From assembly GCA_021779955.1 (NCBI GenBank), contig JAJXZS010000050.1:1-64000 (forward strand): 64,000 bases of DNA, read 5' to 3'. Positions within the stretch are counted from its first letter, which is position 1. The number at the start of each line of letters is the position of its first letter. Position numbers and translations under genes: made by a program. Origin of the DNA: Chloroflexota bacterium (GTDB taxonomy: Bacteria; Chloroflexota; Anaerolineae; Anaerolineales; Anaerolineaceae). Below the pieces are notes generated by a model that was not told where the DNA came from, did not search any database, and saw only the letters and a program-made list of their open reading frames with translations. Shown here piece after piece: positions 733 through 38,427 of this stretch.

Positions 733-1745
733 TGTCTGATAGTATCCTTTATTCCATAAAGAACCTTACCGTCGAATACGAGACCCGCGCAGGTATCGTG
801 CGGGCTGTAGATGGCGTTTCGCTGGATATTCGCCGGGGTGAGATCCTCGGGCTTGTCGGTGAATCCGGATGCGGAAAATCGACGCTTGGGAAAGCTCTCA
901 TGCGCCTGCACGATGGACCTGCCAGCATTACAGGCGGAGAGCTCCTCTTCAACGGCACCGATTTGATGAAACTGTCCTTAAGCGAAATGCCCAAGGTCCG
1001 CGGAGCGGAGATTGGCATGGTGTTTCAAGATCCCATGACCTCGCTGAACCCCGTGCAGAGCATTATGGACCATCTTACGGAGACCATTCTTGCGCATGAG
1101 TCGCATTTGAGCAGAGGCGCAGCGCGTGAACGGGCTGAAGAGTTGGTGGAACGCCTGGGCATCCGCAGGGAACGCTTGAAAGAATATCCACATCAGCTTT
1201 CGGGCGGTATGCGCCAGCGGGTGATGATCTCACTCGCATTGGCCCTGCGGGCAAAGCTCGTGATTGCAGACGAGCCGACCACTTCCCTGGATGTGATCGT
1301 CGAAGCCAAGTTCCTCGATCTTCTCAAAGAGCTGCAGCAGGAGTTTGGGCTCACCATTCTGCTCATCACGCATAATATCGGCGTTGTTGCCGAGGTGTGC
1401 GACAGGGTGGCGGTGATGTATGCCGCCAAGATGGCCGAAGTTGGAACCGCCTTTGATGTCTTTGCAGATCCAAAGCATCCATACACTCAGGGACTGCTGA
1501 AATCCGTTCCCAACATCGAAACAGCGAAAGAAGATCTTTACAAGATGGGCGGAGAACCTCCGTCCCTGCTGCATCCCCCTCTTGGCTGCCGTTTCCATCC
1601 GCGCTGCCCATTCGCCATGGAGATTTGCTCGATCAAGGAACCCGATTTCAGGCCCGTCGGGGAAGAGCAATTGGTCTCCTGCTGGCTTTACGAAAAGGAA
1701 GGCATCGATGAGTCACTGCTGGCAAAGGCGGTGAACAATGGCTAA
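732..1745 (+). CDS. Peptide-type ABC transporter ATP-binding protein (DppD/OppD family)
   Basis: This is a 337-aa ATPase of usual family length. Walker A is GESGCGKST near residues 43-51, the Q-loop region [11 protein letters not shown] lies near 97, the ABC signature LSGGMRQR near 156, and Walker B VIADEPT follows with D-loop SLDV and H-loop ITHN. The C-terminal oligopeptide-transporter domain contains [10 protein letters not shown] and further cysteines, which in the OppD/DppD family can bind an Fe-S cluster. It powers import together with the preceding permease and the following ATPase. It overlaps the next gene by 8 bases. The substrate is unknown; dipeptide or oligopeptide is the default for the family. 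Confidence 0.93.
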
Positions 1746-2793
1746 AGCGGACACGAAAGCCAAAGCAATGTATTCGACGCAGGTTGCCAATGATGGCGAT
1801 GTTCTGGTTGAGGTGGACAACCTGGTCAAGTATTTCCCGATCTCGGGCGGGTTCCTGGCCACCCTGCTTCACCGCGGCGACATCCCAGCGGTCAGAGCAG
1901 TGGATGGGGTGAGTTTCAATATCAAGCGCGGAGATGTGTTCGGCCTGGCGGGCGAAAGCGGTTCGGGAAAATCCACCATCGGCCGGCTGGTGCTGCGCCT
2001 TTACGAGCCGACTTCAGGTAAAGTGATCTTCGATGGGACCGACTTGAGCAAGCTTTCAGCCGAGGAAATGCGCCATCTGCGTTCGCGCATGCAGATCGTG
2101 TTCCAGGATCCATTGGCATCGCTCAACCCACGCATGACGTTGGGGCAGGGGGTTGAAAACCCCGTGGAAATCCACATGCCCGAATTGAATGCGGAGCAGC
2201 GCCGTCAGCGCGTGCTGGATATCTTCCATGCCGTGGGCATGAACCCGCCGGAATCGTTTTACGATCTCTACCCGCATCAAATCTCTGGGGGACAGCGCCA
2301 ACGGGTAGTGCTCGCGCGCGCTTTGGTTACGCATCCCGACCTGGTTGTAGCAGACGAGCCAATTGCCATGGCAGACGTTTCGGTCCGCTCGATCTTGCTC
2401 GATTTGATGATGAAGATGAAACATGAATTCGATTTGACTTACCTGTTCATCACTCACGATTTGGCAACTGCCAAGTACATCTGCAACCGGATTGCCGTGC
2501 TTTACCTGGGGAAGATGGCCGAAATGGGCGATGTGGATGAGGTTTATGCCCATCCACTGCATCCCTATACGCAAGCCTTGATGGCTGCTGTGCCGGTACC
2601 CGACCCCACCAAGCGGCGCAAGACCAAGATGCCCGAAGGTGAGATCCCCAACCCGATCAATCCTCCCTCAGGCTGCAGATTCCATCCGCGTTGTCCATTT
2701 GCGATCGAAATCTGTTCTCAGGTCGAGCCCGAATTGCGTGAATTACGTCCAAACAACCAGGTCGCCTGCCACGTGGCAGAAAAGTTCATGTAA
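1738..2793 (+). CDS. Peptide-type ABC transporter ATP-binding protein (DppF/OppF family)
   Basis: This is the 351-aa partner ATPase of the preceding gene. It has Walker A GESGSGKST, Q-loop FQDPLASLNPR, signature ISGGQRQRV and Walker B VVADEP. After Walker B the D-loop reads IAMADVS rather than the usual TSALDVS, so the typical SALD motif is altered although the Asp is kept. The C-terminal part has the [10 protein letters not shown] motif of the oligopeptide/dipeptide C-terminal domain. An N-terminal extension of about 22 residues precedes the ABC domain. It is the last gene of the operon; a strong terminator begins 15 bases after its stop. Confidence 0.92.
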   Translation: MAKADTKAKAMYSTQVANDGDVLVEVDNLVKYFPISGGFLATLLHRGDIPAVRAVDGVSFNIKRGDVFGLAGESGSGKSTIGRLVLRLYEPTSGKVIFDGTDLSKLSAEEMRHLRSRMQIVFQDPLASLNPRMTLGQGVENPVEIHMPELNAEQRRQRVLDIFHAVGMNPPESFYDLYPHQISGGQRQRVVLARALVTHPDLVVADEPIAMADVSVRSILLDLMMKMKHEFDLTYLFITHDLATAKYICNRIAVLYLGKMAEMGDVDEVYAHPLHPYTQALMAAVPVPDPTKRRKTKMPEGEIPNPINPPSGCRFHPRCPFAIEICSQVEPELRELRPNNQVACHVAEKFM

Positions 2794-23130: not shown

Positions 23131-24120
23131 ATGGCTGACATACTTAAAGTCCAGGATCTCGAAACGCATTTCTACACTCGAGAAGGAACGGTGCACGCTG
23201 TTAATGGCGTTTCTTTCCACCTGAAGGAAGGGGAAACGCTGGGAATCGTGGGGGAAAGCGGCTGTGGCAAGAGTGTGACCATGATGTCGATGATGCGGCT
23301 GATCCCCTCGCCCCCAGGAAAAGTAGTCAACGGCAAGGCATTGTACCAGGATAAAGACCTGCTCCAAATATCGGATGACGAAATACGGCACATCCGTGGC
23401 TCTCAAATCTCCATGATCTTCCAAGACCCAATGACCTCCTTCAATCCGGTGCTGACTATCGGCCGCCAGATTGCGGAGCCATTGGAAACGCACCTGGGGA
23501 TGAACAAGCAGCAGGCGGCGGAACGCTCGGCTGAGATGCTAAAAACGGTTGGCATCCCCAACCCCAAAGACCGCTTGAGCGACTATCCACACCAATTTTC
23601 AGGTGGAATGCGCCAAAGGGCCATGATTGCCATGGCGCTCACCTGCAACCCGCAAATCCTCATCGCAGATGAACCGACAACTGCCCTCGATGTGACCATC
23701 CAGGCGCAGATCGTCGAACTCGTCAAACGTCTGCGCGACGACATGGGCATGGCCATTATCTGGATCACCCACGACCTCGGTATCATCGCGGGCCTGGCAG
23801 ACCGGGTTGCGGTCATGTACGGCGGTTATTTCATCGAAGAAGCCCAGGTCAAGGCACTTTACGGCGACCCGCAACATCCGTACACACTGGGCCTGCTTGG
23901 CAGTCTCCCCCGCCTGGACGCGAGCGGGCGCGAACGCCTGACTTCGATCGAAGGCCTTCCCCCTGTTTTATACGAAAAACCGAAATCCTGTCCTTTTGCT
24001 CCGCGATGTACCTACCGTGTGGATCACTGCCTTCAAGAAAATCCGCCCCTGATGACCGTCGGTGTTGAGCATAGAGCTGCCTGCTGGATCAATCCTTCCA
24101 CCCGGAGAGAACGTCAATGA
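23131..24120 (+). CDS. Peptide-type ABC transporter ATP-binding protein (DppD family)
   Basis: This 329-aa ATPase has Walker [11 protein letters not shown]-loop [11 protein letters not shown], signature FSGGMRQR, Walker B LIADEPT with TALDVT, and H-loop ITHD. The oligopeptide C-terminal domain has [14 protein letters not shown], with four cysteines in the family pattern. It is first gene of a locus ATPase-ATPase-binding protein-permease-permease, an order different from the usual A-B-C-D-F. It overlaps the next gene by 4 bases (ATGA). Together with the murein-dipeptide genes just upstream it could import peptides or muropeptides. Confidence 0.93.
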
Positions 24121-25100
24121 CAGAACAGGAAGTTTTGCTTAGAGTTGACCATCTCGTCAAGTATTTCCCAATCATGAAGGGTGGTTTATTTCCCAGGCAA
24201 GTTGGCGCGGTCAGGGCAGTCGATGGCGTTTCGTTCGACATTCGCCGTGGTGATACCCTCGGACTTGTGGGTGAATCGGGCTGCGGCAAGTCGACAACCG
24301 GACGCAACATCCTGCAATTACAGGTCCCAACATCAGGTCACGTCTATTTCGAGGGCGTCGACCTGGTCGCTTTAAAACCTGAACCGATGCGCAAGATGCG
24401 CAGAAGAATGCAGATGATCTTCCAGGACCCTTACGCTTCACTCAACCCGCGCATGACCATTGGCGAGATCATCGCAGAACCCCTGATCATTCATGGCATT
24501 ATTCCCAAAAAAGAAGTCGATGGCGAGGTGGAGCGGCTGCTTTCTATTGTTGGCTTGAACCCTGCATATGCCAACCGCTATCCACACGAGTTCTCGGGCG
24601 GACAGAGACAGCGCGTTGGCGTCGCCCGCGCGCTGGCACTTAAACCTTCCTTGATCGTATGCGATGAGCCGATCTCGGCGCTCGATGTCTCGATCCAGGC
24701 GCAGGTCGTCAATTTGCTCGAAGACCTGCAACAGAAATTCAACCTCACATACCTCTTCATCGCGCATGACCTTTCCATGGTGCGCCACATTTCCACCCGC
24801 GTAGCGGTGATGTATCTTGGCATGCTTATGGAACTGGCCACCCGCGATGAGCTGTACAGCAATCCTTTGCACCCATATACCCAGGCGCTGCTCTCCGCCG
24901 TACCCATCCCTGATCCAATGGTGGAAGAGAAAAGGCAGCGCAAGATCCTGGTCGGAGATGTACCCTCACCTGCCAATCCACCATCCGGTTGCAGATTCCG
25001 CACCCGCTGCCCGCTGGCCATTGGCATTTGCGCCGAACAGGTACCAGAATTCCGGGAGGTAAGACCAGGTCACTTTGTGGCCTGTCATCTGGTGAAATAA
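24117..25100 (+). CDS. Peptide-type ABC transporter ATP-binding protein (DppF family)
   Basis: This 327-aa second ATPase has Walker [14 protein letters not shown]-loop [11 protein letters not shown], signature [13 protein letters not shown], Walker [16 protein letters not shown] and H-loop IAHDLS. The C-terminal domain has [15 protein letters not shown]. All nucleotide-binding motifs are canonical. It is translationally coupled to the DppD-type gene and followed by a 113-base gap that holds an isolated long Shine-Dalgarno match before the binding-protein gene. Confidence 0.93.
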
Positions 25101-25105
25101 GAAGC

Positions 25106-25116
25106 AAGGAGGTGAT
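25106..25116 (+). promoter_or_regulatory. Isolated long Shine-Dalgarno match (STAB-SD-like) in binding-protein leader
   Basis: AAGGAGGTGAT is complementary over 11 bases to the usual 3' end of 16S rRNA, but no fitting start codon follows. The binding-protein gene has its own AAGGAGG site before its ATG at 25214, 98 bases later. Such unused sites can hold a 30S subunit and protect mRNA, as known for the cry3A STAB-SD element. A similar site is at 31202. Confidence 0.5.
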
Positions 25117-25213
25117 TCGAACAGGAGAGAATCATTACACGATCTTTTGTGGTACTCCAGCCAATTGCTCACCGAAGAAAATCTTGTTTATTCTAATAAG
25201 GAGGAGAATCAAG

Positions 25214-26890
25214 ATGCGTTCAAAATTGTTGGTCATTGTTTCACTGCTCATGGTTGCTAGCATGGTCCTGGGCGCCTGCGCAAAAGCACCCGCAGCCCCC
25301 TCGCAGACCTTGCGCGTCAACCTGGGTACGTACCCCGATACGCTCGATCCGCAGAAGTCATCCTTCGTCAATGAAATTGCACACCTTAAGATGATCTACG
25401 AAGGACTCACCCGCCTGGATGCCAACCTGGAAACAGTCGCCGGCGCCGCTGAAAAGTGGTCCTATAACGCCGACGCAACCGTGTTGACCTTCACCCTGCG
25501 CGCGAACCTCAAATATAGCGATGGCAGTCTCCTGAATGCCAAACGGTTTGAGTATTCCATCCTGCGCAATATCGATCCCACGACTGCTGGCGAGTATGCA
25601 TCCATCACCGATGATATCGCCGGAGCCACCGAGTGGCGTAGTGCCGACCTGGCAACCGCTACCCCCGAGCAACTTGCAATCCTGAAGTCGAACGTCCAGG
25701 TGAAAGCGACCGATGGCGGTGGCGTTGCCTGCACAGGATACGATCAGAAGGACTGCAACACCCTCGTTATCGGCCTCAAGCAGCCTGCACCCTACTTCCA
25801 CACCGTGATGTCCCTCTGGGTGACCTATCCTGCCAAGCAGGAACTCATCGAGCAGGGCGGCGAGAGTTGGTACACTGACCCAGCGCTGCAACTCGGCAAT
25901 GGCCCAATGGTTCTCTCGACCCTCGAGCCTACCGTTTCTGCCATGTTCACCCCGAACGCCAATTACTGGCGCGGTACTGCCAAGGTCAACATCGAATTCC
26001 GCTACATCACCGATTCGGCAGTCTCTTTCCAGGCCTACAAGAACGGCGAGTTCGATGTCATTCCTCTGGGCGCTGAAGATTTCGCCACCGCTCAGAATGA
26101 CGCCACCCTTGCTTCCCAGATTCTGAACTACCCAGGAAGCTGCACCTTCGCTCTGATGTTCCATCAACTCAAGGAACCCTTCACCGATCAGAAAGTCCGC
26201 GAAGCCTTCGCCTATGCGCTCGACCGCTCAGCCTGGGTAACCGACATTCTCAAGGGTCTTGGAAATCCAACCCTCACCTGGATCCCGAAGGGCTTCCCTG
26301 GTTATGATGCTCAGGAAACCCGCTGGGGCTTCGATCCCGCTGCTGCGAAACAGGCAATCGCCGATTCCAGCTACGGCTCCGTGGATAAACTTCCTCCCAT
26401 CACCCTGACCTTCTCCGATACTCCCCGCAACCGCACTCGCTATGAGTGGCTGGCCGCCAAGTATAAAGAGGTTCTCGGCGTCGATATGGCTTTGAATCCT
26501 GTAGAATCCACAACCTACACCGCCCTCACCAAAGATATCAACACTGCCCCGCAGGTCTACATCCTCGGCTGGTGCGCTGACTACCCCGATCCCCAGAACT
26601 GGCTGTCTGTTTACTGGAAGACCGGCGCTTTCGGCGAGAGAATTGGCTACACCAATCCCACCCTCGATGCCAAGTTAGCTGAAGCTGATTCCAGCACCGA
26701 TCCCACAGCTCGTATGGCTTTGTACGCCCAAGCTCAGACGATGCTCACCGACACAGCACCTGTCGCCTTCTTCTGGAACAACATGAACACCTACCTCGTG
26801 CAGTCCTACGTCAAGGGCATCACCCAGACCCCAATGGATTCCGGTTGGCCTGGTGATATCGATCCTTTGACCATCACCATCGAAAAGTAA
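25214..26890 (+). CDS. Peptide-type ABC transporter substrate-binding lipoprotein (SBP_bac_5)
   Basis: This 558-aa lipoprotein has signal MRSKLLVIVSLLMVASMVLGAC with the lipobox LGAC. The family 5 solute-binding fold shows LGTYPDTLDPQKS, the block TFTLRANLKYSDGSLLNAKRFEYS, VTFQAYKNGEFDV-like SFQAYKNGEFDVIP, the helix KVREAFAYALDRSAW, and AQTMLTDTAPVAFFWNN. AAGGAGGAG lies 8 bases before the ATG; the open frame runs further upstream into the previous gene but those codons are not part of the protein. It captures the substrate outside the membrane for the permeases downstream. A stable hairpin follows its stop. Confidence 0.94.
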   Translation: MRSKLLVIVSLLMVASMVLGACAKAPAAPSQTLRVNLGTYPDTLDPQKSSFVNEIAHLKMIYEGLTRLDANLETVAGAAEKWSYNADATVLTFTLRANLKYSDGSLLNAKRFEYSILRNIDPTTAGEYASITDDIAGATEWRSADLATATPEQLAILKSNVQVKATDGGGVACTGYDQKDCNTLVIGLKQPAPYFHTVMSLWVTYPAKQELIEQGGESWYTDPALQLGNGPMVLSTLEPTVSAMFTPNANYWRGTAKVNIEFRYITDSAVSFQAYKNGEFDVIPLGAEDFATAQNDATLASQILNYPGSCTFALMFHQLKEPFTDQKVREAFAYALDRSAWVTDILKGLGNPTLTWIPKGFPGYDAQETRWGFDPAAAKQAIADSSYGSVDKLPPITLTFSDTPRNRTRYEWLAAKYKEVLGVDMALNPVESTTYTALTKDINTAPQVYILGWCADYPDPQNWLSVYWKTGAFGERIGYTNPTLDAKLAEADSSTDPTARMALYAQAQTMLTDTAPVAFFWNNMNTYLVQSYVKGITQTPMDSGWPGDIDPLTITIEK

Positions 26891-26916
26891 GCGCTAAGAT
26901 CTGATCTAAAGTGTTA

Positions 26917-26947
26917 TGGCCGGCCTGAATTCGATTCGGGCCGGCCA
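26917..26947 (+). promoter_or_regulatory. Intercistronic hairpin after binding-protein gene
   Basis: Arms 26917-26930 and 26934-26947 form a 14-bp stem (one G-U) with a 3-base loop. There is no T-run, so it is probably an mRNA 3'-stabiliser or processing site that lets the binding protein exceed the permeases, as known for other ABC operons. Confidence 0.7.
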
Positions 26948-26976
26948 AAAACCAAAACTTTTGAGGTGCTAGCACT

Positions 26977-27978
26977 ATGACAGGTTATCTGGCAAAAAGA
27001 TTGTTATGGCTGATTCCGGTGATCTTTATTGTTGCCGGCCTCACCTTCATCCTGATGCACAATGCTCCCGGTGGGCCGTGGGACCGCGATCTGAACGCTC
27101 GCCAGGTGGACCCAACTGCTCAAAAGTTATTGAACGAATACTACGGCCTGAACAAACCTCTGGTCAATCAATTTACTTCTTATCTTATCGGCGGTACCAA
27201 TACCACCACTCATAAATGGGTCTGCGGCTTGATTTGCGGAAACATGGGACCATCCTATCGTATCCGGGGCATGTCTGTTCAGCAATATCTCTTCAAACCC
27301 CCGACGAACCGCAATTTCTTCTATAGCAAGTTCGGATATTCCATACGTTTGGCTTTCCTGGCGCTCGGGATCGCTATCCTGGTTGGTCTTCCCATGGGAG
27401 TGATCTCAGCCCTCAAGCAAAACACGTGGATCGACTACATTAACCTATTCGTCGCGACCGTTGGGATTTCCGTCCCAAATTTTGTGATCGCGATTTTCCT
27501 GATTATTATTTTTGCTTCGACATTGCATTGGGTTTCGATTGTTCCCACAAGTTGGGATGAATTGAATGTATGGATCCTGCCCGGCCTCGTGCTCGGCTTT
27601 GGTGTGCTGGCCAGAACCGCGCGTCTCAGCCGCGCAACTATGCTCGAAGTGATGCGCATGGATTATGTTCGCACAGCCCGCGCCAAGGGTTTGACTGAGC
27701 GCGTCGTTGTCGTCCGCCACATGATCCAGAACGCCATGATCCCGGTCGTCACCTTCCTCGGACCGGCCCTGGCTGGTTTGATCACCGGCTCTTTCATCAT
27801 CGAAACGATGTTTGGCTTTCCGGGAATGGGTCGCGCCTATGTGACGGCAATCAGCCAGCGCGACTACTCCATGATCATGGGAACTACGCTGATTTATGCC
27901 GTGCTGGTAGCAATTGCCAACTTATCCGTTGACTTTGTGTATGTTTTGTTGGATCCCCGTATCAAGCTGACGGAATAA
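26977..27978 (+). CDS. Peptide-type ABC transporter permease (DppB family)
   Basis: This 333-aa membrane protein begins MTGYLAKRLLWLIPVIFIVAGLTFILM, as DppB proteins do. It has six expected membrane segments, an outside stretch of about 90 residues after the first, and the EAA loop YVRTARAKGLTERVVVVRHMIQNAMIP. The C-terminus is DFVYVLLDPRIKLTE. The outer loop (GGTNTTTHKWVCGLICGNMGPSYR) contains two cysteines that could form a disulfide. It works with the DppC-type permease whose gene starts 11 bases after its stop. Confidence 0.93.
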   Translation: MTGYLAKRLLWLIPVIFIVAGLTFILMHNAPGGPWDRDLNARQVDPTAQKLLNEYYGLNKPLVNQFTSYLIGGTNTTTHKWVCGLICGNMGPSYRIRGMSVQQYLFKPPTNRNFFYSKFGYSIRLAFLALGIAILVGLPMGVISALKQNTWIDYINLFVATVGISVPNFVIAIFLIIIFASTLHWVSIVPTSWDELNVWILPGLVLGFGVLARTARLSRATMLEVMRMDYVRTARAKGLTERVVVVRHMIQNAMIPVVTFLGPALAGLITGSFIIETMFGFPGMGRAYVTAISQRDYSMIMGTTLIYAVLVAIANLSVDFVYVLLDPRIKLTE

Positions 27979-27989
27979 GGAGCTGATTA

Positions 27990-28988
27990 ATGGAAGAACA
28001 AGCCACCTCAACAACACCTGCTGCTAATGTAGCCAGCCTGAATGAGATCTCCACTCCACGGCGAGATCTGCTGGCCGACGCCTGGTACCGTCTGACTAAG
28101 AACAAGGGCGCCGTCGCCGGAATGATCGTGATCGCATTATTCATTCTTGTAGCGATTTTTGCAGATAAAATCTCACCGCATAACCCGTTGCAGCTCAATT
28201 CCGGCTTCGATTATCTGCCGCCTTTCTGGGTCAAGGAAAATGCTGCAGGCCATGCGGGAAATCCCAATTTCATCTTTGGTACCGATACCCTGGGTAGAGA
28301 TGTGCTTTCGCGTACGCTCTACGGAGCAAGAGTCTCCATGGTCGTTGGTATCTTCCCTACGGCCATCATCCTGCTCGTAGGAACCTTTATTGGGCTTTAC
28401 TCGGGCTATAAGGGCGGTTGGATCGATAATTTGCTGATGCGCTTCACCGACGTGGTCTACGCCTTCCCCGATCTTCTCTTCTTCATCATCGTCATGATCT
28501 CTCTGCGCGACACAGTTATAGGTAAGATGTTGAATGGGCTCTTCCTGTTGTTCCTGGCCCTGGCCATTGTCAACTGGGTGGGCGTGGCGCGTATCGTTCG
28601 CGGACAGGTACTCTCCCTGCGCGAAAAAGAATTCGTCGAAGCAGCCAGGGCAATTGGCGCTTCAAACCGCCGGATCATGTTCAAACATATCCTGCCAAAC
28701 AGCCTGGGACCGATCATCATCACGGCAGCGACCACAGTTCCCGGTATGATCATTACAGAAGCGATTTTGGGGTACCTGGGCCTGGGCCTTCGCCCCTCCA
28801 CCAATCCTCAGGATTTCTTCCTGACTTCGTGGGGCGCCTTGCTACTCGATGGGCAGACCGCGATCAATACACAACCCTGGGCATTGCTCTTCCCGGCCAT
28901 TTGCGTGTCTCTCGTAGTGCTTGCATTCACCTTCCTGGGTGATGGTTTACGAGATGCACTCGATCCAAGGCTGCAGGGAACACAGTAA
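27990..28988 (+). CDS. Peptide-type ABC transporter permease (DppC family)
   Basis: This 332-aa membrane protein has an N-terminal cytoplasmic tail of about 40 residues, a first membrane helix (AGMIVIALFILVAIFA) and then FGTDTLGRDVLSRTLYGARVS, the family signature. The EAA loop is EAARAIGASNRRIMFKHILPN and the end is DALDPRLQG. It completes the transmembrane channel. The gene is followed by a clear terminator, so the transporter operon ends here and the next binding-protein gene is separate. Confidence 0.94.
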   Translation: MEEQATSTTPAANVASLNEISTPRRDLLADAWYRLTKNKGAVAGMIVIALFILVAIFADKISPHNPLQLNSGFDYLPPFWVKENAAGHAGNPNFIFGTDTLGRDVLSRTLYGARVSMVVGIFPTAIILLVGTFIGLYSGYKGGWIDNLLMRFTDVVYAFPDLLFFIIVMISLRDTVIGKMLNGLFLLFLALAIVNWVGVARIVRGQVLSLREKEFVEAARAIGASNRRIMFKHILPNSLGPIIITAATTVPGMIITEAILGYLGLGLRPSTNPQDFFLTSWGALLLDGQTAINTQPWALLFPAICVSLVVLAFTFLGDGLRDALDPRLQGTQ

Positions 28989-29008
28989 TCTCTAAGAATA
29001 AAGAGATC

Positions 29009-29044
29009 AAGGCCTTGGATAAAAGAATTCAAGGCCTTTTTTTT
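29009..29044 (+). terminator. Rho-independent terminator of the second dpp-type operon
   Basis: A 9-bp perfect stem (arms 29009-29017 and 29030-29038, 12-base loop) is followed by eight T. Confidence 0.9.
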
Positions 29045-29114
29045 ATCTATCTGGCAGCTTGAATAGGCTTGAGTTATACTAGCTTCATCTATTTGGGATT
29101 CGGAGCAAATACTC

Positions 29115-31079
29115 TTGGATAACAGCATTGGCAAGAGGGCGGGAAGGGGAATTGCATATATTTTTATCGCAAGCCTGGTACTGGCTGCATGCAGCCCAAG
29201 CGCCATGGGTCAAACCGCGCAACCAGCCACTCCCGCTGTCATACCGGCAACTCCAACCCCAACTGCTGAACCGCCGAAGACACTGGTGATCTGTGCGGGG
29301 GAGGAGCCCTCGAGCCTGTTCTTGTATGGCAATCCGACAGCTTCTGCCTGGAGCGTGCTCGAATCGATCTATGACGGCCCCATCGACACGGTGAACTATG
29401 AACCTGAACCCGTGATCCTCGATGAATTGCCCACCCAGGCAAACGGGGGAGTGACATTGAGCGCGGCTTCCGTCAGCGGAGGCGAACTGGTTGCCAATAC
29501 CGAGGGTGATGTGGTTACGCTCGAAAAGGGCACCCGCGTTTTTCCTGATGGCTGCACAAGTAATGACTGCGCAGTCGATTGGGATGGAACTTCCGCGATC
29601 TCGCTGACGCAGATGACGGCAACGTTTACCCTCAAACCCGGCATCAAGTGGTCAGACGGCTCAATCCTTACCGCTGATGATTCTGTTTATTCCTATACCA
29701 TAGCAGCCGACCCTGCACTTCCCAATTCGAAGAGCCTGGTCGAGAAGACGGCTGCTTATACGGCTAAAGATGCACAAACCGTGGTCTGGACAGGCGTACC
29801 CGGCTACCTGACGCAAAACCCTGCGGCGTTCTTCTTCAGCCCCCTGCCAAAGAATCAACTGCAGCAGCTTGCCCCCGCTGATATGCTCACTGCGGGCCAG
29901 ACGGCTCAAAAGCCGATGGGATGGGGAGCTTATACGATCGAAGAATGGGTCCCTGGCGACCACATTCGCATGGTGAAGAACCTCAACTACTTCCGTGCAG
30001 CCGAGGGATTGCCGAAGTATGATGTTGTTGTCTACAGATTTGTGGGCAGCAATCCGGCTTCAGGGCTGCTACCCCTGGTGAACGGCGAGTGCGATGTGAT
30101 GGATACCTCGGTCGACCTGGATAATCAGGTGCAAGCCGTGATCGATCTCCAACAAAAAGGCAAGATCAATGCCCAATTCGGGCAAGGGCCCGAGTGGGAA
30201 CTGCTCAATTTTGGCATCAAACCTGCAAGTTATGACGATGCGTACAATCCTTACGCAGACCGCCAGGATATCTTTGGCGACGTACGCACCCGAAAGGCCA
30301 TCGCCTACTGCATCGACCGCGAGGGAATTGCCGCGCAGCTCTATTCCGGGAAATCGAGTGTTCCCGCAACCTACCTGCCTCCCAATCACCCCTATCTCGA
30401 TGCTTCGCTTTCACCTATCGTGTACGATCCAGAACAGGGAAAGGCATTGTTGGACGAAGTTGGTTGGAAAGACGCCGATGGCGATCCTTCGACCCCGCGA
30501 AAATCGGTTGGGGTGACTAATGTATTGAATGGAACTGTTCTCTCGCTTTCATATTATGCAACCCAGAGCGATCTGCATGGCCAGGTGGCTGAGAGCATCC
30601 AGTCGTCGCTCAAGAGCTGTGGCGTGGAAGTGAAAATCAACCTGGAGCCCGTTGCCCAGGTCTACGCACCTGCGCCTGACGGCCCGATCTTCGGCAGAAA
30701 TTTCGACCTGGCCGAACTCGCGTGGACGGTCGGACGATTCCCGCCCTGCTATCTCTATTCAACGAGCGAGATCCCTACCGCGAAGAATTCGTGGCTGGGG
30801 ACCAAGTTCGGAGGGGTCAACTTTGGCGGCTATTCGAACCCCGCATATGACGCTGCGTGCAGTTCGCAGCTCTCGGCAGGGTTGAGCGCAGATGAATTCC
30901 AATCGGCAAACCTGGCGGTTCAGCAGATCCTTTTCGGCGATTTGCCGGTGATACCGCTTTTCTACCATGTTCATGTTCTTGCGACACGTCCCGACCTGTG
31001 TGGCGCAAGTCTTGATGTCAGTTCAAGGAGTGGACTTAAAAACATAGAATCTTACAACACTGCGGATAGCTGTAACTAA
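29115..31079 (+). CDS. Stand-alone SBP_bac_5 substrate-binding lipoprotein
   Basis: This 654-aa lipoprotein starts with TTG (no ATG fits; CGGAGC lies upstream) and has a signal ending LVLAACS. A Thr/Pro/Ala linker of about 25 residues follows, then the family 5 fold: FTLKPGIKWSDGSILTADDSVYS, LVNGECDVMD, RTRKAIAYCIDREGIAAQLY and NLAVQQILFGDLPVIPLFYH. It is about 100 residues longer than DppA-type proteins, with an insert near residues 100-160. There is no permease or ATPase gene of its own. It sits between two transporter loci and may serve either one. Confidence 0.9.
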   Translation: MDNSIGKRAGRGIAYIFIASLVLAACSPSAMGQTAQPATPAVIPATPTPTAEPPKTLVICAGEEPSSLFLYGNPTASAWSVLESIYDGPIDTVNYEPEPVILDELPTQANGGVTLSAASVSGGELVANTEGDVVTLEKGTRVFPDGCTSNDCAVDWDGTSAISLTQMTATFTLKPGIKWSDGSILTADDSVYSYTIAADPALPNSKSLVEKTAAYTAKDAQTVVWTGVPGYLTQNPAAFFFSPLPKNQLQQLAPADMLTAGQTAQKPMGWGAYTIEEWVPGDHIRMVKNLNYFRAAEGLPKYDVVVYRFVGSNPASGLLPLVNGECDVMDTSVDLDNQVQAVIDLQQKGKINAQFGQGPEWELLNFGIKPASYDDAYNPYADRQDIFGDVRTRKAIAYCIDREGIAAQLYSGKSSVPATYLPPNHPYLDASLSPIVYDPEQGKALLDEVGWKDADGDPSTPRKSVGVTNVLNGTVLSLSYYATQSDLHGQVAESIQSSLKSCGVEVKINLEPVAQVYAPAPDGPIFGRNFDLAELAWTVGRFPPCYLYSTSEIPTAKNSWLGTKFGGVNFGGYSNPAYDAACSSQLSAGLSADEFQSANLAVQQILFGDLPVIPLFYHVHVLATRPDLCGASLDVSSRSGLKNIESYNTADSCN

Positions 31080-31287: not shown

Positions 31288-33852
31288 ATGAAACAAAAGA
31301 AGCTGTTTTTGGTCGTAAGCCTGATCATCGTTGCATCGATGATTCTTGCTGCATGCGGCACCACCCCAACAGCGGCGCCCACGACCCCGCCACCCGCAGA
31401 AACAACTGCAGCACCAACTACCGCTACCACGGAAGCGCCAACCCCTGTCGCAACACAGACAACTCGCCACGGCGGTTGGTTTGACCAGGTAGTGTTCAGT
31501 GTGGTCAGCTCAGATTCCGTTATCACTCAGCTCCAGGCGGGAGCGATTGATATCTACACGGACGCGCTGGCTTCTTCTGATCTGCCTGCTGTCAAAGATG
31601 CAGGCCTGGCATATGCCACTGCCAGCGGTTTGTACTACGATATCCTGTACAACCCCGCTGTCTTCACTGACACCAATGTCCTCAACCCGTTCACCAATCG
31701 CAAGATTCGCGAAGCAACGAACTGGCTGTATGACCGCGATTACCTCAATCAGGAGATCTTTGGTGGTGGTTCGCTCGCCAAGTTCTTCGCTATCACCACG
31801 CAGTTCCCTGATTACGCTGACCTTGCAGCCACTGCCCGCGGATTGGAAGCCTACTATGCTTACAACCCCGACAAGGCCAAGTCAATCATCGCCACTGAAA
31901 TGGAAGGAATGGGCGCGACCCTAGTTGGCGACAAATGGCAATACAAGAATAAACCGGTCACTCTGATCTTCGTTGTCCGCAATGACAGTGACAAAACTCG
32001 TATCCCGATGGGTGACTACATTACCAAGCAACTCGAGAGTGTTGGGTTCACAGTCACTGAAGAATACAAGACCGGTTCTGAAGCTTCCCCGATCTGGATT
32101 GGTTCACAGCCGGAAGAAGGTCTGTGGAGCCTTTACACCGCTGCATGGTCTGCGACCGTTTTGGATCGCAATCAGGCCAACATCTTCCAGGAAATGTACC
32201 TGCCTGATAGCGCGCAGGGCATCCCTGTGTTCCTGGCCAATAAACCAGATCCTGCCTTCCAGAAACTCGGCGACGATCTGTACAACTCCAACTTCTCGAC
32301 TGCCCAGCAGCGCCACGACATGATGGCCGAAGCCCTCAAGCTCTCCCTCCAGGATAGCCTCCAGGTCTTCCTCATCGACGGCAAAGCCATTATCCCGTAT
32401 GTCAACGGCCTCACCGTTACCGCAGACCTGGCAGCAGGTGTCCAGGGTGCACAGATCTGGCCAGAGACCCTCCGCCGCACCGGCGAAGAGGGCGGCACGC
32501 TGCAGTGGGGTACCCAGGATCTGTTCGGTGATCCGTACAACCCGATTGCCGGCTCCAACTGGGCATATGACCAGGGTGCCATCCGCGCCACCCAGAGTGG
32601 TGATTTCATGGCTGATCCTTACACCGGCCTGTATCATCCATTCCGCATCGAATCCGCAGTCGTGGTAGCCCAAACCGGCCTGCCCATCACCAAGACTGAA
32701 AATTGGGTTGACCTGCAATTCCAGGACACCATCGAGGTCCCGACCGATGCATGGGTTGACTGGGATGCCACCAATCAGGTCTTCATCACCGCTGGTGATA
32801 AGTTCCCCAATGGCCTTACTGCCAAACGCATGACGCGCTACATCTATCCTGCCAACCTTTTTGACACAGTCAAATGGCACGATGGCAGCTCGTTCTCTGT
32901 AGCCGATGTCGTCATGGGCAGCATCATGACCTTCGATCGCTCCAAACCCGAAAGCGCTATCTATGACGCACAATCAGTACCAGTCTTCGATTCGTTCATG
33001 AGCGCTTTCAAGGGTATCCGCATTGTTTCCACCAGCCCTCTGACGGTCGAATACTACACAGACACGTTCCAGTTGGATGCTGAAAACAATATCCCGCTGG
33101 CCATCGGCTGGCCTACCTACTCATTTGGTGAAGCACCCTGGGACGTTCTCGCAATTGCGAACCTGGCCGAAGCCAACGGCGAGCTTGCTTACTCCGTTGA
33201 CAAAGCTACTGCCAATGCGAACAATCCCATCGAGCAGACCAGCTTCATTGGTGGTCCGAGCCTTGACATCCTGAATAAATACCTGACTCAGGCTGCGAAC
33301 GAAAGCTACATCCCTTATGCTCCCACCATGAGCCAGTACATCACAGCCGACGAAGCAAAAGCCCGCTACGCCAACTTGTTGGCCTGGTACACAGAGCATG
33401 GTCACTTCTGGGTTGGAACCGGCCCGTACTTCCTGGATCAGGTCTTCCTGACTGAGAAGAGCCTTACCCTTGGCAGCTTCTCAGACTATCCTGATCTGGT
33501 CAACCGTTGGGCTACCTACGGCGCTCCTAAGATCGCTGATGTTGCTCTGGATGGACCTGCCCAGGTTACGATCGGTCAACCCGCTACGTTCAATGTGACG
33601 GTTTCCTATGAAGGCAACCCGTACCCGGCGACCGAGATCAACACCGTGAGATACCTGGTCTATGACGCCACCAACACGATCATCGAATCTGGCGAAGCCT
33701 CCAATGTAACTGACGGTCAATATACTGTCGATCTCTCTGCAGAGACCACCGCCAAACTGGCTGCAGGCTCGAACAAACTCGAGGTTGCAGTAGTACCAAA
33801 TGTTGTTAGTGTTCCAACGTTCACTTCGATTACTTTCGTTACTGTTCCATAA
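31288..33852 (+). CDS. Large SBP_bac_5-like lipoprotein, circularly permuted, with C-terminal Ig-like domain
   Basis: This 854-aa lipoprotein has signal ending MILAACG and a Thr/Pro/Ala-rich linker (about 24-60). Unlike normal family 5 proteins it then starts in the middle of the fold: WFDQVVFSVVSSDSVITQLQAGAIDIY is the strand-helix that normally follows the first half. NRKIREATNWLYDRDYLNQEI and the usual C-terminal half follow, up to about 390. The normally N-terminal half comes after that: GGTLQWGTQDLFGDPYN (about 404), VKWHDGSSFSVADVV (about 527) and VGTGPYFLDQVF (about 710). The last 105 residues look like an immunoglobulin-type beta domain. It serves the permeases downstream. The substrate is unknown; peptides or oligosaccharides are possible for this transporter class. 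Confidence 0.87.
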   Translation: MKQKKLFLVVSLIIVASMILAACGTTPTAAPTTPPPAETTAAPTTATTEAPTPVATQTTRHGGWFDQVVFSVVSSDSVITQLQAGAIDIYTDALASSDLPAVKDAGLAYATASGLYYDILYNPAVFTDTNVLNPFTNRKIREATNWLYDRDYLNQEIFGGGSLAKFFAITTQFPDYADLAATARGLEAYYAYNPDKAKSIIATEMEGMGATLVGDKWQYKNKPVTLIFVVRNDSDKTRIPMGDYITKQLESVGFTVTEEYKTGSEASPIWIGSQPEEGLWSLYTAAWSATVLDRNQANIFQEMYLPDSAQGIPVFLANKPDPAFQKLGDDLYNSNFSTAQQRHDMMAEALKLSLQDSLQVFLIDGKAIIPYVNGLTVTADLAAGVQGAQIWPETLRRTGEEGGTLQWGTQDLFGDPYNPIAGSNWAYDQGAIRATQSGDFMADPYTGLYHPFRIESAVVVAQTGLPITKTENWVDLQFQDTIEVPTDAWVDWDATNQVFITAGDKFPNGLTAKRMTRYIYPANLFDTVKWHDGSSFSVADVVMGSIMTFDRSKPESAIYDAQSVPVFDSFMSAFKGIRIVSTSPLTVEYYTDTFQLDAENNIPLAIGWPTYSFGEAPWDVLAIANLAEANGELAYSVDKATANANNPIEQTSFIGGPSLDILNKYLTQAANESYIPYAPTMSQYITADEAKARYANLLAWYTEHGHFWVGTGPYFLDQVFLTEKSLTLGSFSDYPDLVNRWATYGAPKIADVALDGPAQVTIGQPATFNVTVSYEGNPYPATEINTVRYLVYDATNTIIESGEASNVTDGQYTVDLSAETTAKLAAGSNKLEVAVVPNVVSVPTFTSITFVTVP

Positions 33853-33882
33853 AGTGCCCGAAGTCCGTTGAGTAATGAAATC

Positions 33883-33914
33883 GATAGGGGCAAGGGCGAT
33901 ACCTTGCCCCTATC
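33883..33914 (+). promoter_or_regulatory. Intercistronic hairpin after the permuted binding-protein gene
   Basis: Perfect 13-bp stem (arms 33883-33895 and 33902-33914, 6-base loop) with no T-run, between binding-protein and permease genes. It is in the same position as the hairpin at 26917 in the other locus. Confidence 0.75.
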
Positions 33915-33936
33915 AATCCTGACTTGAGGATCGGTT

Positions 33937-35055
33937 ATGGTAACAGAATCGCAAACAGCAGAAATCATAAAAAGACGGACCAGAAACACCACATTGGTCC
34001 GGCTGGCCCGTTTTACCGGCCTGCGCCTTGTTGCTCTTGTCGCGACTGTAGTGGTCGGAGTATATTTGACCATTCTCATCGCAAACATGGGCGGGTATGT
34101 CGATCAGATCATGCGGAATGACATCCGGGAGCGTATCTCGCAGCAAGTGGCTGCGATGAACGTTACGCATCCAATGTCGCTTGAGGCTCGCCAACAATTG
34201 ACCCAACAATTGATTGCGCAGGACGTAAAGCGATTAGGCCTCGACACGCCGTTTGCGGTTCGCTCTGGTCGTTTTCTGATCAATGCTCTGCAATTAAAAT
34301 TGGGAACTGCCCTGAACATGGTCAGTGACCATGGATCGCGCTCGGTGGAATCAATTATCCTTGAACGCCTTCCCGCCACATTGCTTTTAATGGGAACTTC
34401 GGAATTGTTCCTCTTCTTCTTCAGCGTTTTTATTGCGCTGATCTTATCTCGTAAATATGGCAGCATCTGGGACAAGATTGTTGTAACTCTTTCACCCACT
34501 TCAGCCGCCCCCCCCTGGTTCTATGGTATTTTCTTCATCCTCATTTTTGCGGCAGTGTTGAGGCTCCTTCCATTTGGAGGACTGGTGGAATCACCACCTC
34601 CTGCAAATACCTTTGAATATGCGTTGAGTGTGCTCAAGCATATGATTCTGCCAGCATCATCGCTGATCATTTCTTCGCTTTTCTTGAGCATTTACAACTG
34701 GCGCACGTTCTTCCTGATATATTCCAGTGAAGATTACGTGGACATGGCCAAAGCAAAAGGCCTTGCCGCGCGCGATATCGAACGCCGTTACATCCTTCGC
34801 CCAACGCTTCCCACCATCATTACGAATTTTGCCTTACTGGTAATCACTCTTTGGACAGGCGCGACGATTACAGAAACAGTATTCCTGTGGCCTGGTTTGG
34901 GACGCACATTGTACCGGGCGATCGGCCTCTACGATACTCCGGTCATCGTAGGTTCTACAATCATTTATGCTTACTTGCTCGCAATTACCGTATTCATCCT
35001 TGACTTCGTCTATGCCTTGGTTGACCCGCGCGTCAAGGTTGGTGGAGGAAACTAG
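33937..35055 (+). CDS. Peptide-type ABC transporter permease (DppB-like) with enlarged first outer loop
   Basis: This 372-aa membrane protein has an N-terminal cytoplasmic tail, a first membrane helix near residues 28-50 (LVALVATVVVGVYLTILIANMGG), an outside helical stretch of about 95 residues (RNDIRERISQQVAAMN, EARQQLTQQLIAQDVKRLG) and LPATLLLMGTSELFLFFFS, where the permease core begins. The EAA loop is YVDMAKAKGLAARDIERRYILRPTLPT and the end YALVDPRVKVGGGN. It is distant from the DppB of the locus upstream. It is 2 bases from the next permease gene. Confidence 0.9.
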   Translation: MVTESQTAEIIKRRTRNTTLVRLARFTGLRLVALVATVVVGVYLTILIANMGGYVDQIMRNDIRERISQQVAAMNVTHPMSLEARQQLTQQLIAQDVKRLGLDTPFAVRSGRFLINALQLKLGTALNMVSDHGSRSVESIILERLPATLLLMGTSELFLFFFSVFIALILSRKYGSIWDKIVVTLSPTSAAPPWFYGIFFILIFAAVLRLLPFGGLVESPPPANTFEYALSVLKHMILPASSLIISSLFLSIYNWRTFFLIYSSEDYVDMAKAKGLAARDIERRYILRPTLPTIITNFALLVITLWTGATITETVFLWPGLGRTLYRAIGLYDTPVIVGSTIIYAYLLAITVFILDFVYALVDPRVKVGGGN

Positions 35056-35057
35056 CC

Positions 35058-36407
35058 ATGAAAAAACTTAAAAACTTCCTCCACGATATTTTCCGCTATC
35101 CAACCGCAATTGTTGGCGGCGTCGTCATCCTGCTTCTCATCGTTCTGGCAGCCTATGCCATGATCAAGATCCCCTATTCTCAGGCTATAGCGCTGTGGAA
35201 AGGCGGTGAAGAGGTCTGGTACAAAAATCCCAAGACCGCTGCGCCTTCCTGGTTCAATTTCTTTCTTTCCAAAAAGGAACCTGTTTCATTTGATGCAACG
35301 GTTGGTACTGGCGCAGATCACATAACCAAGACCGTCACTCCAGGTAAACAGGATACAGCCAAGATCGACTTCACCTATAGTTTCAATTTCCAGGCAGATA
35401 CCTTCCCGCAAGACCTGATCATCTACTTTACTTCGACTTACGCTGCCAAACAGCCTTTTGCTTCGGTCATTCTGAACACACCGGATGGTCGCTCGATCAA
35501 CCTCGCCAATTTTGGAGTCGCCAGGCAGTTTACCTATCGCATTGCACAGGATACCGATCTGGCCAAGAAACTGAAAAATGACGATGTGATCGAAGGACTT
35601 TTCATGATCCCCAAATCGGATCCGCCGCTGACCCAAAAAGGCACGTACCAACTGGTGATCAATGGAGTAACCTTCGAGCAGAACTCTGACCTCAACGCAG
35701 AATTCGTCTTCCATGGCACCTTGTTCGGCCTCGCAGGTACAGACAGCATGCGCCGCGATTTGATGGTCCCGATTCTTTGGGGTGCTCCAATCGCGCTGGC
35801 ATTCGGTTTGCTGGCAGCCATGGGAACCTCCATCTTGACCATGATCATTGCTGCAATCGGCGCATTTTACGGTGGATTTATAGATGGTTTGATTCAGCGC
35901 GTCACCGAAGTCAACCTGGTCCTGCCTTTCCTGGCGATCCTGATCATGGTGGGTACTTTCTACAGCCGCAGCATCTGGATCATCCTGGGTGTTACTGTGG
36001 CCTTGAGTGTCTTCACCAGTTCGATCAAGTCATACCGGGCCATCTTCATGCAGATCAAGGAATCGACGTATATTGAAGCTGCTCGCGCGTATGGCGCTAA
36101 CAACGGGCGCATCATCTTCCAGTACATGATCCCACGCATCATCCCCATGCTGATCCCAACGCTGGTATCCGCTGTGCCGGCTTACGTGTTCCTCGAGGCA
36201 TCTCTGGCGGTGTTGGGTTTGGGCGATCCAACCCTTCCCACCTGGGGCAAGACCATTTACGACGCCGACATCTACGGCGCTCTGTATAAAGGTCTGTATT
36301 ATTGGATTTTGGAACCGGCAGTTTTGCTGATGGTTACCGGACTGGGTTTTGCTATGTTGGGCTTCGCCCTCGACCGAATTTTCAATCCAAGACTGAGAGG
36401 GCTGTAA
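35058..36407 (+). CDS. Peptide-type ABC transporter permease (DppC-like) with large extracytoplasmic insert
   Basis: This 449-aa protein is about 130-150 residues longer than normal DppC proteins. After the first membrane helix (about 14-37, TAIVGGVVILLLIVLAAYAMI) comes an outside domain of about 190 residues, rich in beta strands (KIDFTYSFNFQADTFPQDLIIYF cut short here by position 125, QLVINGVTFEQNSD near 205). Only then does the family signature follow, in the weak form GLAGTDSMRRDLMVPILWGAPIAL (about 223). The EAA loop is YIEAARAYGANNGRIIFQYMIPR and the C-terminus DRIFNPRLRGL. The inserted domain may dock the unusual binding protein; this is inference. Confidence 0.9.
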   Translation: MKKLKNFLHDIFRYPTAIVGGVVILLLIVLAAYAMIKIPYSQAIALWKGGEEVWYKNPKTAAPSWFNFFLSKKEPVSFDATVGTGADHITKTVTPGKQDTAKIDFTYSFNFQADTFPQDLIIYFTSTYAAKQPFASVILNTPDGRSINLANFGVARQFTYRIAQDTDLAKKLKNDDVIEGLFMIPKSDPPLTQKGTYQLVINGVTFEQNSDLNAEFVFHGTLFGLAGTDSMRRDLMVPILWGAPIALAFGLLAAMGTSILTMIIAAIGAFYGGFIDGLIQRVTEVNLVLPFLAILIMVGTFYSRSIWIILGVTVALSVFTSSIKSYRAIFMQIKESTYIEAARAYGANNGRIIFQYMIPRIIPMLIPTLVSAVPAYVFLEASLAVLGLGDPTLPTWGKTIYDADIYGALYKGLYYWILEPAVLLMVTGLGFAMLGFALDRIFNPRLRGL

Positions 36408-36411
36408 ACCG

Positions 36412-37368
36412 ATGACTGACAAACAATTACTTCGCATCGAAAACCTGGTGCTGCACTTCCGCACTGAACGCGGCACGGTCAAAGCAGTGGATGGGGTGAA
36501 CTTCAACCTGGCATTTAATGAAGCGGTCGTGGTTCTGGGAGAATCGGGCTGCGGAAAGACATCGCTGGCGAAAGCCATCCTTCGTCTGCTCCCGCGTAAC
36601 GTCGAGACATATAGCGGCAAGGTGTTCCTCAACAACAAAGACACCATGGCGCTGGACGACGAAGAATATCGCCGGAACGTCCGCTGGCAGCAGATATCGA
36701 TGGTTCCGCAGGCAGCCATGAACTCGCTCAATCCGGTGCTGCGTATCGGCGACCAGGTATCTGAACCGATGGTCGTCCACAGCGGTGTGTCGAAAGACAA
36801 GGCGCTTGCCCAGGCTAAACGTATGTTCGACCTGGTCGGAGTGCCCGAGGAGTTCCTCAGTCGTTATGCCTTCGAGCTGAGCGGCGGCATGAGGCAGCGC
36901 GCGGCAATCGCCATGGCGCTCGTCACCACCCCCGATCTGATCATCCTCGACGAGCCGACCTCTGCTCTTGACGTGCTGACCCAGGCAAACATCTTTAATG
37001 TGCTTAAACGAATCAAGAAAGATATGGAAACCAGCTACATCCTGATCACGCATGATATTGCCACTTCGTCTGAATTGGCGAACAAGGTGGCTGTTATGTA
37101 TGCAGGTCAGATCGTGGAAGTGGGCGACGCCATGCGGTTCTTCGCCGAACCGCTGCATCCTTACTCCAAAAAGCTGATGGCAAGCGTTCCGCGCCTGCAC
37201 GGTGATAAGGAACCCGATTTCATCGTCGGGCAGCCACCCAGCTTGCTCAATCTGCCAACAGGATGCCGTTTTAAGGATCGCTGCCCGTTCCGTTTCAATA
37301 AATGTGATGAAGAACCCCCGGTGATCACTAAAGAAGGCCGTCTGGTGAAATGCTGGTTACACGCTTAA
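36412..37368 (+). CDS. ABC transporter ATP-binding protein (DppD-like)
   Basis: This 318-aa ATPase has Walker A GESGCGKTSL, a changed Q-loop VPQAAMNSLNPV (Gln kept, usual FQDP missing), signature [10 protein letters not shown], Walker B LIILDEPTSALDV and H-loop ITHDIAT. The C-terminal domain has GCRFKDRCPFRFNKC. The altered Q-loop region fits its interaction with divergent permeases. It begins 4 bases after the permease stop and is followed by the partner ATPase 12 bases on. Confidence 0.93.
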   Translation: MTDKQLLRIENLVLHFRTERGTVKAVDGVNFNLAFNEAVVVLGESGCGKTSLAKAILRLLPRNVETYSGKVFLNNKDTMALDDEEYRRNVRWQQISMVPQAAMNSLNPVLRIGDQVSEPMVVHSGVSKDKALAQAKRMFDLVGVPEEFLSRYAFELSGGMRQRAAIAMALVTTPDLIILDEPTSALDVLTQANIFNVLKRIKKDMETSYILITHDIATSSELANKVAVMYAGQIVEVGDAMRFFAEPLHPYSKKLMASVPRLHGDKEPDFIVGQPPSLLNLPTGCRFKDRCPFRFNKCDEEPPVITKEGRLVKCWLHA

Positions 37369-37380
37369 AGGAGAAGAAGA

Positions 37381-38427
37381 ATGACAGAATCATTGACTCC
37401 GGAGACAGCGGCCGAAATGCCTGTGGCAACCGACATCTCCACCGGTACAAATGAAAAAATATTGCTCTCTGTAAAAGATCTTCGAGTGTGGTTCGAGTTG
37501 CGCCGCTTCGGATTTGGCCATGCCGGTTACGTGCATGCAGTCGATGGAGTAAGCTTCGACTTGTATGACGGTGAAGCCATCGCCATCGTTGGCGAAAGCG
37601 GCTGCGGCAAATCAAGCTTGATGAAGACCATCCTGGGGCTCAACAAGATTACGAAAGGTTCGATCGAATTCAAGGGCGAAAACCTGGCGGGCATGAACAG
37701 TTCTGCATTGCACAACTATCGCTCCAAGGTTGGCTATGTCCAACAGGATCCCTATGGCGCAATGGCTCCTTTCATGACGGTCAGCAAGATCCTGGATGAG
37801 CCACTAAAGATCAATACCCGGATGAATCCCGCGGAACGGCTCAAACGGATCGAGCAGGCGCTGACCGAGGTTAAGGTCACCCCCGTGCTGGACTTCCTGC
37901 CGAAGTTCCCGCACATGCTCAGTGGTGGACAGCAGCAGCGCATGGTCATTGCCCGCGCGATGATTCTGGACCCGCAGTTGATGGTCGCCGACGAGCCCGT
38001 TTCGATGCTTGACGCTTCGGTGCGTGTCGAAATCCTCAAACTGCTTCGTGCACTACAGGAACGCCACAAGCTGGCGGTGATCTACATTACCCACGACCTT
38101 TCCACCGTGCGATACTTCTCGCGCCGTATCTTCGTAATGTACGCGGGGCAGATCATCGAAAAAGCCAAAGCGGACGATCTTCTGAATAATCCGAAGCATC
38201 CCTATACAAACGCATTGCTAACAGGCACTTCGGAACCGGATGCAAACAACGCCAACAGCTACAAGAATGTTCCCCCAGGCGAACCGCCGAACCTGATCAA
38301 GCCGCCTGCGGGTTGCCGCTTCCACCCGCGCTGCCCCTTTATTATGAAAGGGCTCTGCGACGTGGAGGAACCACCGAATTTCCACATCGAAGACGAACAC
38401 GAGGCCGCCTGCTGGTTATTCAAGTAA
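37381..38427 (+). CDS. ABC transporter ATP-binding protein (DppF-like)
   Basis: This 348-aa ATPase has a 35-residue N-terminal extension, Walker [14 protein letters not shown]-loop VQQDPYGAMAPF instead of FQDPxxSLNP, signature LSGGQQQRMVIAR, Walker B MVADEPVSMLDASV and H-loop ITHDLST. The C-terminal domain has [16 protein letters not shown]. Like its partner it departs from the consensus in the Q-loop region while the Gln is kept. It is the last transporter gene of the locus. Confidence 0.93.
   Translation: MTESLTPETAAEMPVATDISTGTNEKILLSVKDLRVWFELRRFGFGHAGYVHAVDGVSFDLYDGEAIAIVGESGCGKSSLMKTILGLNKITKGSIEFKGENLAGMNSSALHNYRSKVGYVQQDPYGAMAPFMTVSKILDEPLKINTRMNPAERLKRIEQALTEVKVTPVLDFLPKFPHMLSGGQQQRMVIARAMILDPQLMVADEPVSMLDASVRVEILKLLRALQERHKLAVIYITHDLSTVRYFSRRIFVMYAGQIIEKAKADDLLNNPKHPYTNALLTGTSEPDANNANSYKNVPPGEPPNLIKPPAGCRFHPRCPFIMKGLCDVEEPPNFHIEDEHEAACWLFK

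Follow-up and report, generated by a model that had tools for sequence, protein, structure and literature searches.

An 854-residue predicted protein encoded at positions 31288 to 33852 (+) of a 64,000-nucleotide stretch of Chloroflexota DNA (contig JAJXZS010000050.1, positions 1 to 64,000; hereafter the window) raises the question of whether a peptide-binding protein of the SBP_bac_5 type can carry its two halves in reverse order, and if so, whether this is an isolated event. An initial annotation made from sequence alone had proposed that blocks normally found near the N terminus of DppA-type proteins occur late in this chain, at residues about 527-725, that the blocks normally following them open the mature protein at about 64-150, with the break point exactly between the two halves, and that about 105 beta-rich residues are added at the end.

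To determine whether this arrangement is real, we first examined the gene itself. It is a single open frame from an ATG at 31288 to a stop ending at 33852. By inspection, the translation begins with a lipoprotein-like signal peptide (31288..31356) ending in a lipobox, LAAC, with Cys23, although NCBIfam yields only lipoprotein matches below cut-off in this region. A Thr/Pro/Ala-rich linker of residues 24-63 (31357..31476), which is variable in relatives, leads into module A (residues 64-390, 31477..32457), module B (residues 391-745, 32458..33522) and a tail of 109 residues (746-854, 33523..33849). The diagnostic blocks are located where they had been placed, with FDQVVFSVV at 65, NRKIREATNWLYDRD at 137, VKWHDGSSFSVADVV at 528, GTGPYFLDQV at 710 and SDYPDL at 732, and the beta-rich tail is likewise present. 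The protein matches the Pfam profile SBP_bac_5 (PF00496) well above the curated cut-off (80.9 bits against 32.4, E 1.3e-22) in two stretches, of which the range is known only for the best: residues 65-294 correspond to profile positions 148-353, such that the middle and end of the profile come first and the chain does not follow the usual linear order. Thus, the observation made in the initial annotation is confirmed.

To assess whether the two halves are complementary pieces of one ordinary fold, we compared the protein with solved structures. The only significant relative in the PDB by sequence is 7fi3, the oligopeptide permease A (OppA) of Thermococcus kodakaraensis with a bound pentapeptide (whole protein E 4.3e-11). 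Chain residues 62-291 of 7fi3 match residues 473-719 of the window protein, and chain residues 328-569 match residues 70-290 (per-stretch E 5.4e-4 and 3.6e-6), with shared N-lobe stretches such as VPTDAWVDWDATNQVF / VPEDAVIFNSTTDTWV and EHGHFWVGTGPYFLDQV / EHNHAVIGQGPYYVDEY. L043, a locus from another Chloroflexota family whose protein is 28% identical, shows the same swapped order far above chance (3.1e-16 and 1.7e-25; 8.5e-43 overall). When the chains were shifted cyclically so that module B comes first, and trimmed to modules A and B, the two stretches merged into one for both proteins: residues 83-582 of the shifted window protein correspond to chain residues 62-569 (53.2 bits against 45), and residues 27-586 of L043 to chain residues 22-597 (154.3 bits against 149.7). 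Similarly, the score against a crude profile of six ordinary SBPs increases when the halves are joined, from 38.1 to 56.0 bits for the window protein, from 81.7 to 93.4 for L043 and from 31.5 to 42.6 for L052, a member of a second order described below. In contrast, no gain was observed for L050, which has the same order as the window protein (19.4 bits uncut and at best).

Structure prediction agrees with this order, albeit weakly. Only the window protein and four named relatives were used as alignment rows, and both AlphaFold models are weak overall. The first (m18db8aee7a1c; whole protein, 4 rows) has a mean pLDDT of 44.6 and is too weak to support a claim about the fold, and the second (residues 64-745, 6 rows; mean pLDDT 52.8) is used only to establish which part matches which. 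An alignment into which halves of ordinary SBPs had been mixed was visibly misaligned and was not folded. Residues 384-650 of the second model (residues 447-713 of the protein) align with residues 70-320 of 7fi3 (Z 15.0, rmsd 3.5, 220 residues aligned), whereas model residues 1-333 (64-396 of the protein) align with residues 204-544 of 1vr5 (Z 12.0, rmsd 6.5, 269 residues aligned), with similar ranges aligning with AppA, NikA and OppA. Neither model shows the two halves packed as one closed fold, and these data therefore do not decide whether the whole chain adopts the three-dimensional fold of OppA/DppA. The tail, however, was modeled with confidence in the first prediction as an Ig-like beta-sandwich. 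Many of its best Foldseek matches are Ig-like domains of about 100 residues (e.g. 2p9r), and among them are an alpha-2-macroglobulin domain (TM 0.71 on the target), a filamin domain (0.66) and a CARDB domain (0.52).

Two outcomes had been named in advance as fatal to a permutation, and neither was encountered: no linear full-length match to a solved protein was found, and the first 390 residues do not resemble a separate, complete fold but instead align, in the weak model, with the C-terminal part of OppA/AppA-type structures. The initial annotation's reading of a genuine circular permutation is therefore supported, and it is the explanation that fits best. An alternative is that truncated C-terminal and N-terminal SBP fragments from different genes were fused and converged on a complete fold, a caution raised by the authors of the TpMglB-2 study for their own protein (PMC4990184). 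Truncation and fusion is mechanistically simple, and tandem SBP genes do occur at some of these loci. Nonetheless, both halves have the same best relative in the PDB, with complementary and non-overlapping ranges that become one continuous match on shifting, and we consider fusion unlikely.

We next asked how widely this order, termed P1, is distributed. Among 400 Chloroflexota genomes, 51 had some match, of which 13 had only short matches and were not counted. The remaining 38 carry the module B of this subfamily, in every row found as part of a permuted gene, with identities from 60% down to 26%. A search of the same 400 genomes for unpermuted genes with this module B gave none at 1e-5, although at most five candidates per genome were scored, and phyla other than Chloroflexota were not surveyed. 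Four named relatives, 49-78% identical, derive from MAGs labelled Chloroflexota, Chloroflexi, Anaerolineales and Anaerolineaceae, and one of these (L042) is broken at an unread base. No relative was confirmed in viral contigs. In plasmids, the window protein found none at 1e-5, and L043 gave 42 records with partial matches only, none covering 80%. P1 members of one family (f52) lack the Ig-like tail, whereas genomes G343 and G168 carry about 97 extra residues in module B of P1 proteins of one genus (L036:1207-4158:+ and L037:181-3105:-), Ala-rich in L036. Most source genomes are fragmented assemblies and tandem copies exist, such that a collapsed array or misjoined contig might in principle create a false order. 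However, the carriers include genomes listed as one contig (G005, G112, G337, G039 and G186), and cut sites are the same across divergent sequences. An artefact is thus hard to maintain for P1, or for the third order described below, and we regard it as extremely improbable.

The permuted gene is followed by the other components of an Opp/Dpp-type ABC importer, an arrangement that spans window positions 31288-38427. These are permease B (33937..35055 (+), 372 aa, BPD_transp_1), permease C (35058..36407 (+), 449 aa, also BPD_transp_1), a D-type ATPase (36412..37368 (+), 318 aa) and an F-type ATPase (37381..38427 (+), 348 aa), the latter two named by resemblance to OppD/DppD and OppF/DppF. E. 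coli DppA belongs to the same protein family, and its importer operon likewise comprises permeases B and C and ATPases D and F. The permease domain of permease C lies at residues 263-447 (NCBIfam Opp4C positions 59-278 correspond to residues 226-445) and is preceded by about 165-180 residues that are extra in comparison with ordinary OppC/DppC models. Further Opp/Dpp-type transporter genes lie at window positions 1-2793 and 23131-31079, and the SBPs encoded upstream of the permuted one, at 24989-26890 and 29115-31079, match Pfam in ordinary order.

The initial annotation had also suggested that the permutation might suit the modified permeases, an idea that is only partly supported. In 22 stretches examined (the window and 21 loci), a permease C was found after the SBP and permease B in 16, one of them a locus of the second order (L052). 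Each time it was the long type (stop-to-stop frames of 446-593 aa), and at least one ATPase followed in 15 of the 16 (not L048). The six without were L049, L050, L051, L068, L070 and L071. Several of these are cut by the stretch or contig, but L051, a P1 locus, has no permease match in 12 kb. In contrast, of eight loci with the third and fourth orders (P3 and P4), four P3 loci (L121, L124, L125 and L126) have permease C frames of ordinary length, 311-324 aa, beside a permuted SBP. L117 (P4) has permease B before its contig ends, and three P3 loci, L120 (in the window's own genome), L122 and L123, show no permease match in 11-12 kb. Permutation as such does not need the long permease, and the extra segment could instead be an ancestral trait of 7fi3-type transporters. 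A co-evolved unit in which the permutation arose to dock onto permease C is therefore doubtful.

A second order, P2, is cut inside lobe II. L052, in genome G393, reads as the second half of lobe II (module A2), then module B, then module A1. The same order occurs in L068 and L074 (both in G410), L070 (G424) and L071 (G425), giving five genes in four genomes of one family, and a search of 84 genomes of that order of bacteria added no further P2 gene. L074 lacks its start at a contig end. All five genes stop at the same turn, and the four with starts begin at the matching point behind a signal-like hydrophobic stretch. By alignment of P1 and P2 sequences, this cut site corresponds to residues about 218-221 of the window protein (31939..31950), where the chain is uncut. 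On a tree of 54 sequences, P2 falls in three places among P1 genes of f52, and holding P2 together as one clade is rejected (log-likelihood difference 303, p-AU 8e-7). Modules A1, A2 and B each place L070 with the P1 gene L049_76, and L071 with the P1 genes L050, L080 and L084. In the A2 and B trees, however, L052 parts from L068 and L074 (4 changes instead of 3), indicating that module histories are not fully concordant. Three separate re-cuts at one site are the simplest reading. Gene exchange between P1 and P2 paralogues after a single P2 event is not excluded and remains a possible, though less favored, alternative, since the cut is at the same turn in all five genes and P1 and P2 genes coexist in G393 and G425. 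Because the pairs are about 48-59% identical, any such exchange would have to be old and cover the whole gene.

A third order, P3, is cut inside the N-lobe and is present in the window's own genome (G000, contig C31, 9864-11570; L063:895-2601:-). This 569-residue protein matches DppA residues 152-533 first and 28-145 last. In 201 genomes of the window's taxonomic order, 94 genes in 90 genomes match it over the full permuted length (query start 68 or less, end 563 or more). In 251 genomes of the phylum, 32 have a match at 1e-50 or better, in 33 rows, of which all but one (G152, shorter) cover the permuted length. The count of 94 genes in 90 of 201 genomes, like those for P1 and P4, was made by eye.

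A fourth order, P4, appears to be P3 re-cut in lobe II. In G631, of the window's genus, one gene (L117:3777-5615:+, contig C24) matches DppA residues 373-530, then 30-146, then 155-368. This order is found in 10 of the 16 genomes of the genus, taking unlisted, non-matching genomes to lie outside it. The copy in G750 has one in-frame TAG and that in G752 is partial. G745, of the same genus, has a P3-order copy in two broken frames, whereas G000 has only its P3 gene. A shift scan with DppA alone showed no gain for P3 and at most 0.5 bits for P4, because one stretch dominated, and three controls of ordinary order behaved unevenly in this test (L058 and L066 gave one long stretch, w29115 only a short one). 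The evidence for both orders is therefore the order of the separate DppA stretches. In a quick tree rooted at the midpoint, P4 forms one clade that lies inside P3. L113 was omitted from this tree as the same gene as L124, and the new start was not trimmed in five of the ten P4 rows (L129, L130, L131, L132 and L137). Both parts of P4 trace to the same P3-order sisters (72% and 64% identical in G667, 72% and 66% in G693), which also argues against fusion of fragments from different genes. The inner junction of P4 reads as the P3 C-terminal tail (FFGAFLNA) followed by a stretch like the P3 mature N terminus (..LTAPSCDYGG), as expected from tandem duplication, fusion and trimming. Judged by eye, to within several residues and without an aligner, the new ends of P4 lie at about the turn in lobe II that P2 also uses.

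Taken together, we conclude with good confidence that the window protein is the membrane-anchored substrate-binding protein of an Opp/Dpp-type importer and carries a true, old circular permutation of the SBP_bac_5 fold. The swapped chain order, its conservation and the partner genes are established directly by our data, whereas the protein's function and the origin of the permutation are inferences. SBP_bac_5 proteins close two lobes over a peptide or similar oligomer and deliver it to permeases B and C, and P1 proteins presumably do the same with moved ends, although the ligand is unknown and there is no evidence on ligand binding or transport. In ordinary members the N and C termini lie together on lobe I. 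In this view, the former termini are joined by a short linker, and new ends were opened just before the strand that leads from lobe I to lobe II, as placed from DppA/OppA anatomy. The lipid anchor would therefore lead straight into that crossover, with the end of module B capped by the Ig-like domain. The likely origin is tandem duplication, in-frame fusion and trimming of the outer ends, a route that can be read in the P3 to P4 case and is supported by tandem P1 SBP genes lying side by side in L045 and L049, possible raw material for such an event. Since no unpermuted sister of P1 was found in Chloroflexota, this route is inferred for P1 by analogy.

One natural precedent for permutation of a substrate-binding protein was found, TpMglB-2 (Tp0684) of Treponema pallidum, termed Cluster Bc (PMC4990184). 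This lipoprotein is a Type I/Cluster B glucose-binding protein in which the first three strands of the N-lobe sheet are moved to the end, and it thus represents another protein class and another cut site; we did not compare it directly with the window protein, whose Pfam match is SBP_bac_5. For comparison, 7fi3 has the ordinary order, N-lobe then lobe II, whereas the window protein has lobe II first; a tail comparable to the Ig-like domain was not sought in 7fi3. We found no report of permuted peptide-binding or SBP_bac_5 proteins, or of such permutation in Chloroflexi, in the literature searched, which included few subscription papers. Within that literature, what is new is therefore the permutation of this class, with an unusual repetition. 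The authors of the TpMglB-2 study suggest membrane tethering as a possible reason for permutation. This fits only in part here and was not tested, since most of the permuted proteins that we read have lipoprotein-like starts, but L048 looks Tat-like and L070 has no lipobox Cys. What the move of the chain ends does, if anything, is unknown, as is any benefit.

In Chloroflexota, the class appears to have been permuted several times, at three cut sites. It is somewhat more likely than not that these proteins are a natural hot spot of circular permutation, with four to six separate events (ordinary to P1, ordinary to P3, P3 to P4, and P1 to P2 one to three times), one cut site, the turn in lobe II, having been hit in two different subfamilies. 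If so, the chain ends of this fold can move widely while the transporter stays in use. A natural circular permutation is usually seen once, long after the fact, whereas here one event (P3 to P4) is recent enough that sisters about 64-72% identical are at hand and the fused old ends can be read. How permutations arise and become fixed, and why the ends of a substrate-binding protein should move, thus become testable in one system. In practice, linear profile matches cover only part of such proteins, and engineered permuted binding proteins used as biosensors gain natural examples for comparison.

Some permuted SBPs also carry additional N-terminal parts. The P1 protein of L051 (4980-8225:-) has about 380 extra N-terminal residues that include a match to a matrixin-type metallopeptidase (PF00413). 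A 942-residue frame in L121 (2290-5115:+) starts, as judged by eye, like a serine/threonine protein kinase and ends in a P3-type SBP, and a 963-residue frame in L107 (1474-4362:-) consists of a lipoprotein-like N-terminal part of unknown kind followed by a P3-type SBP.
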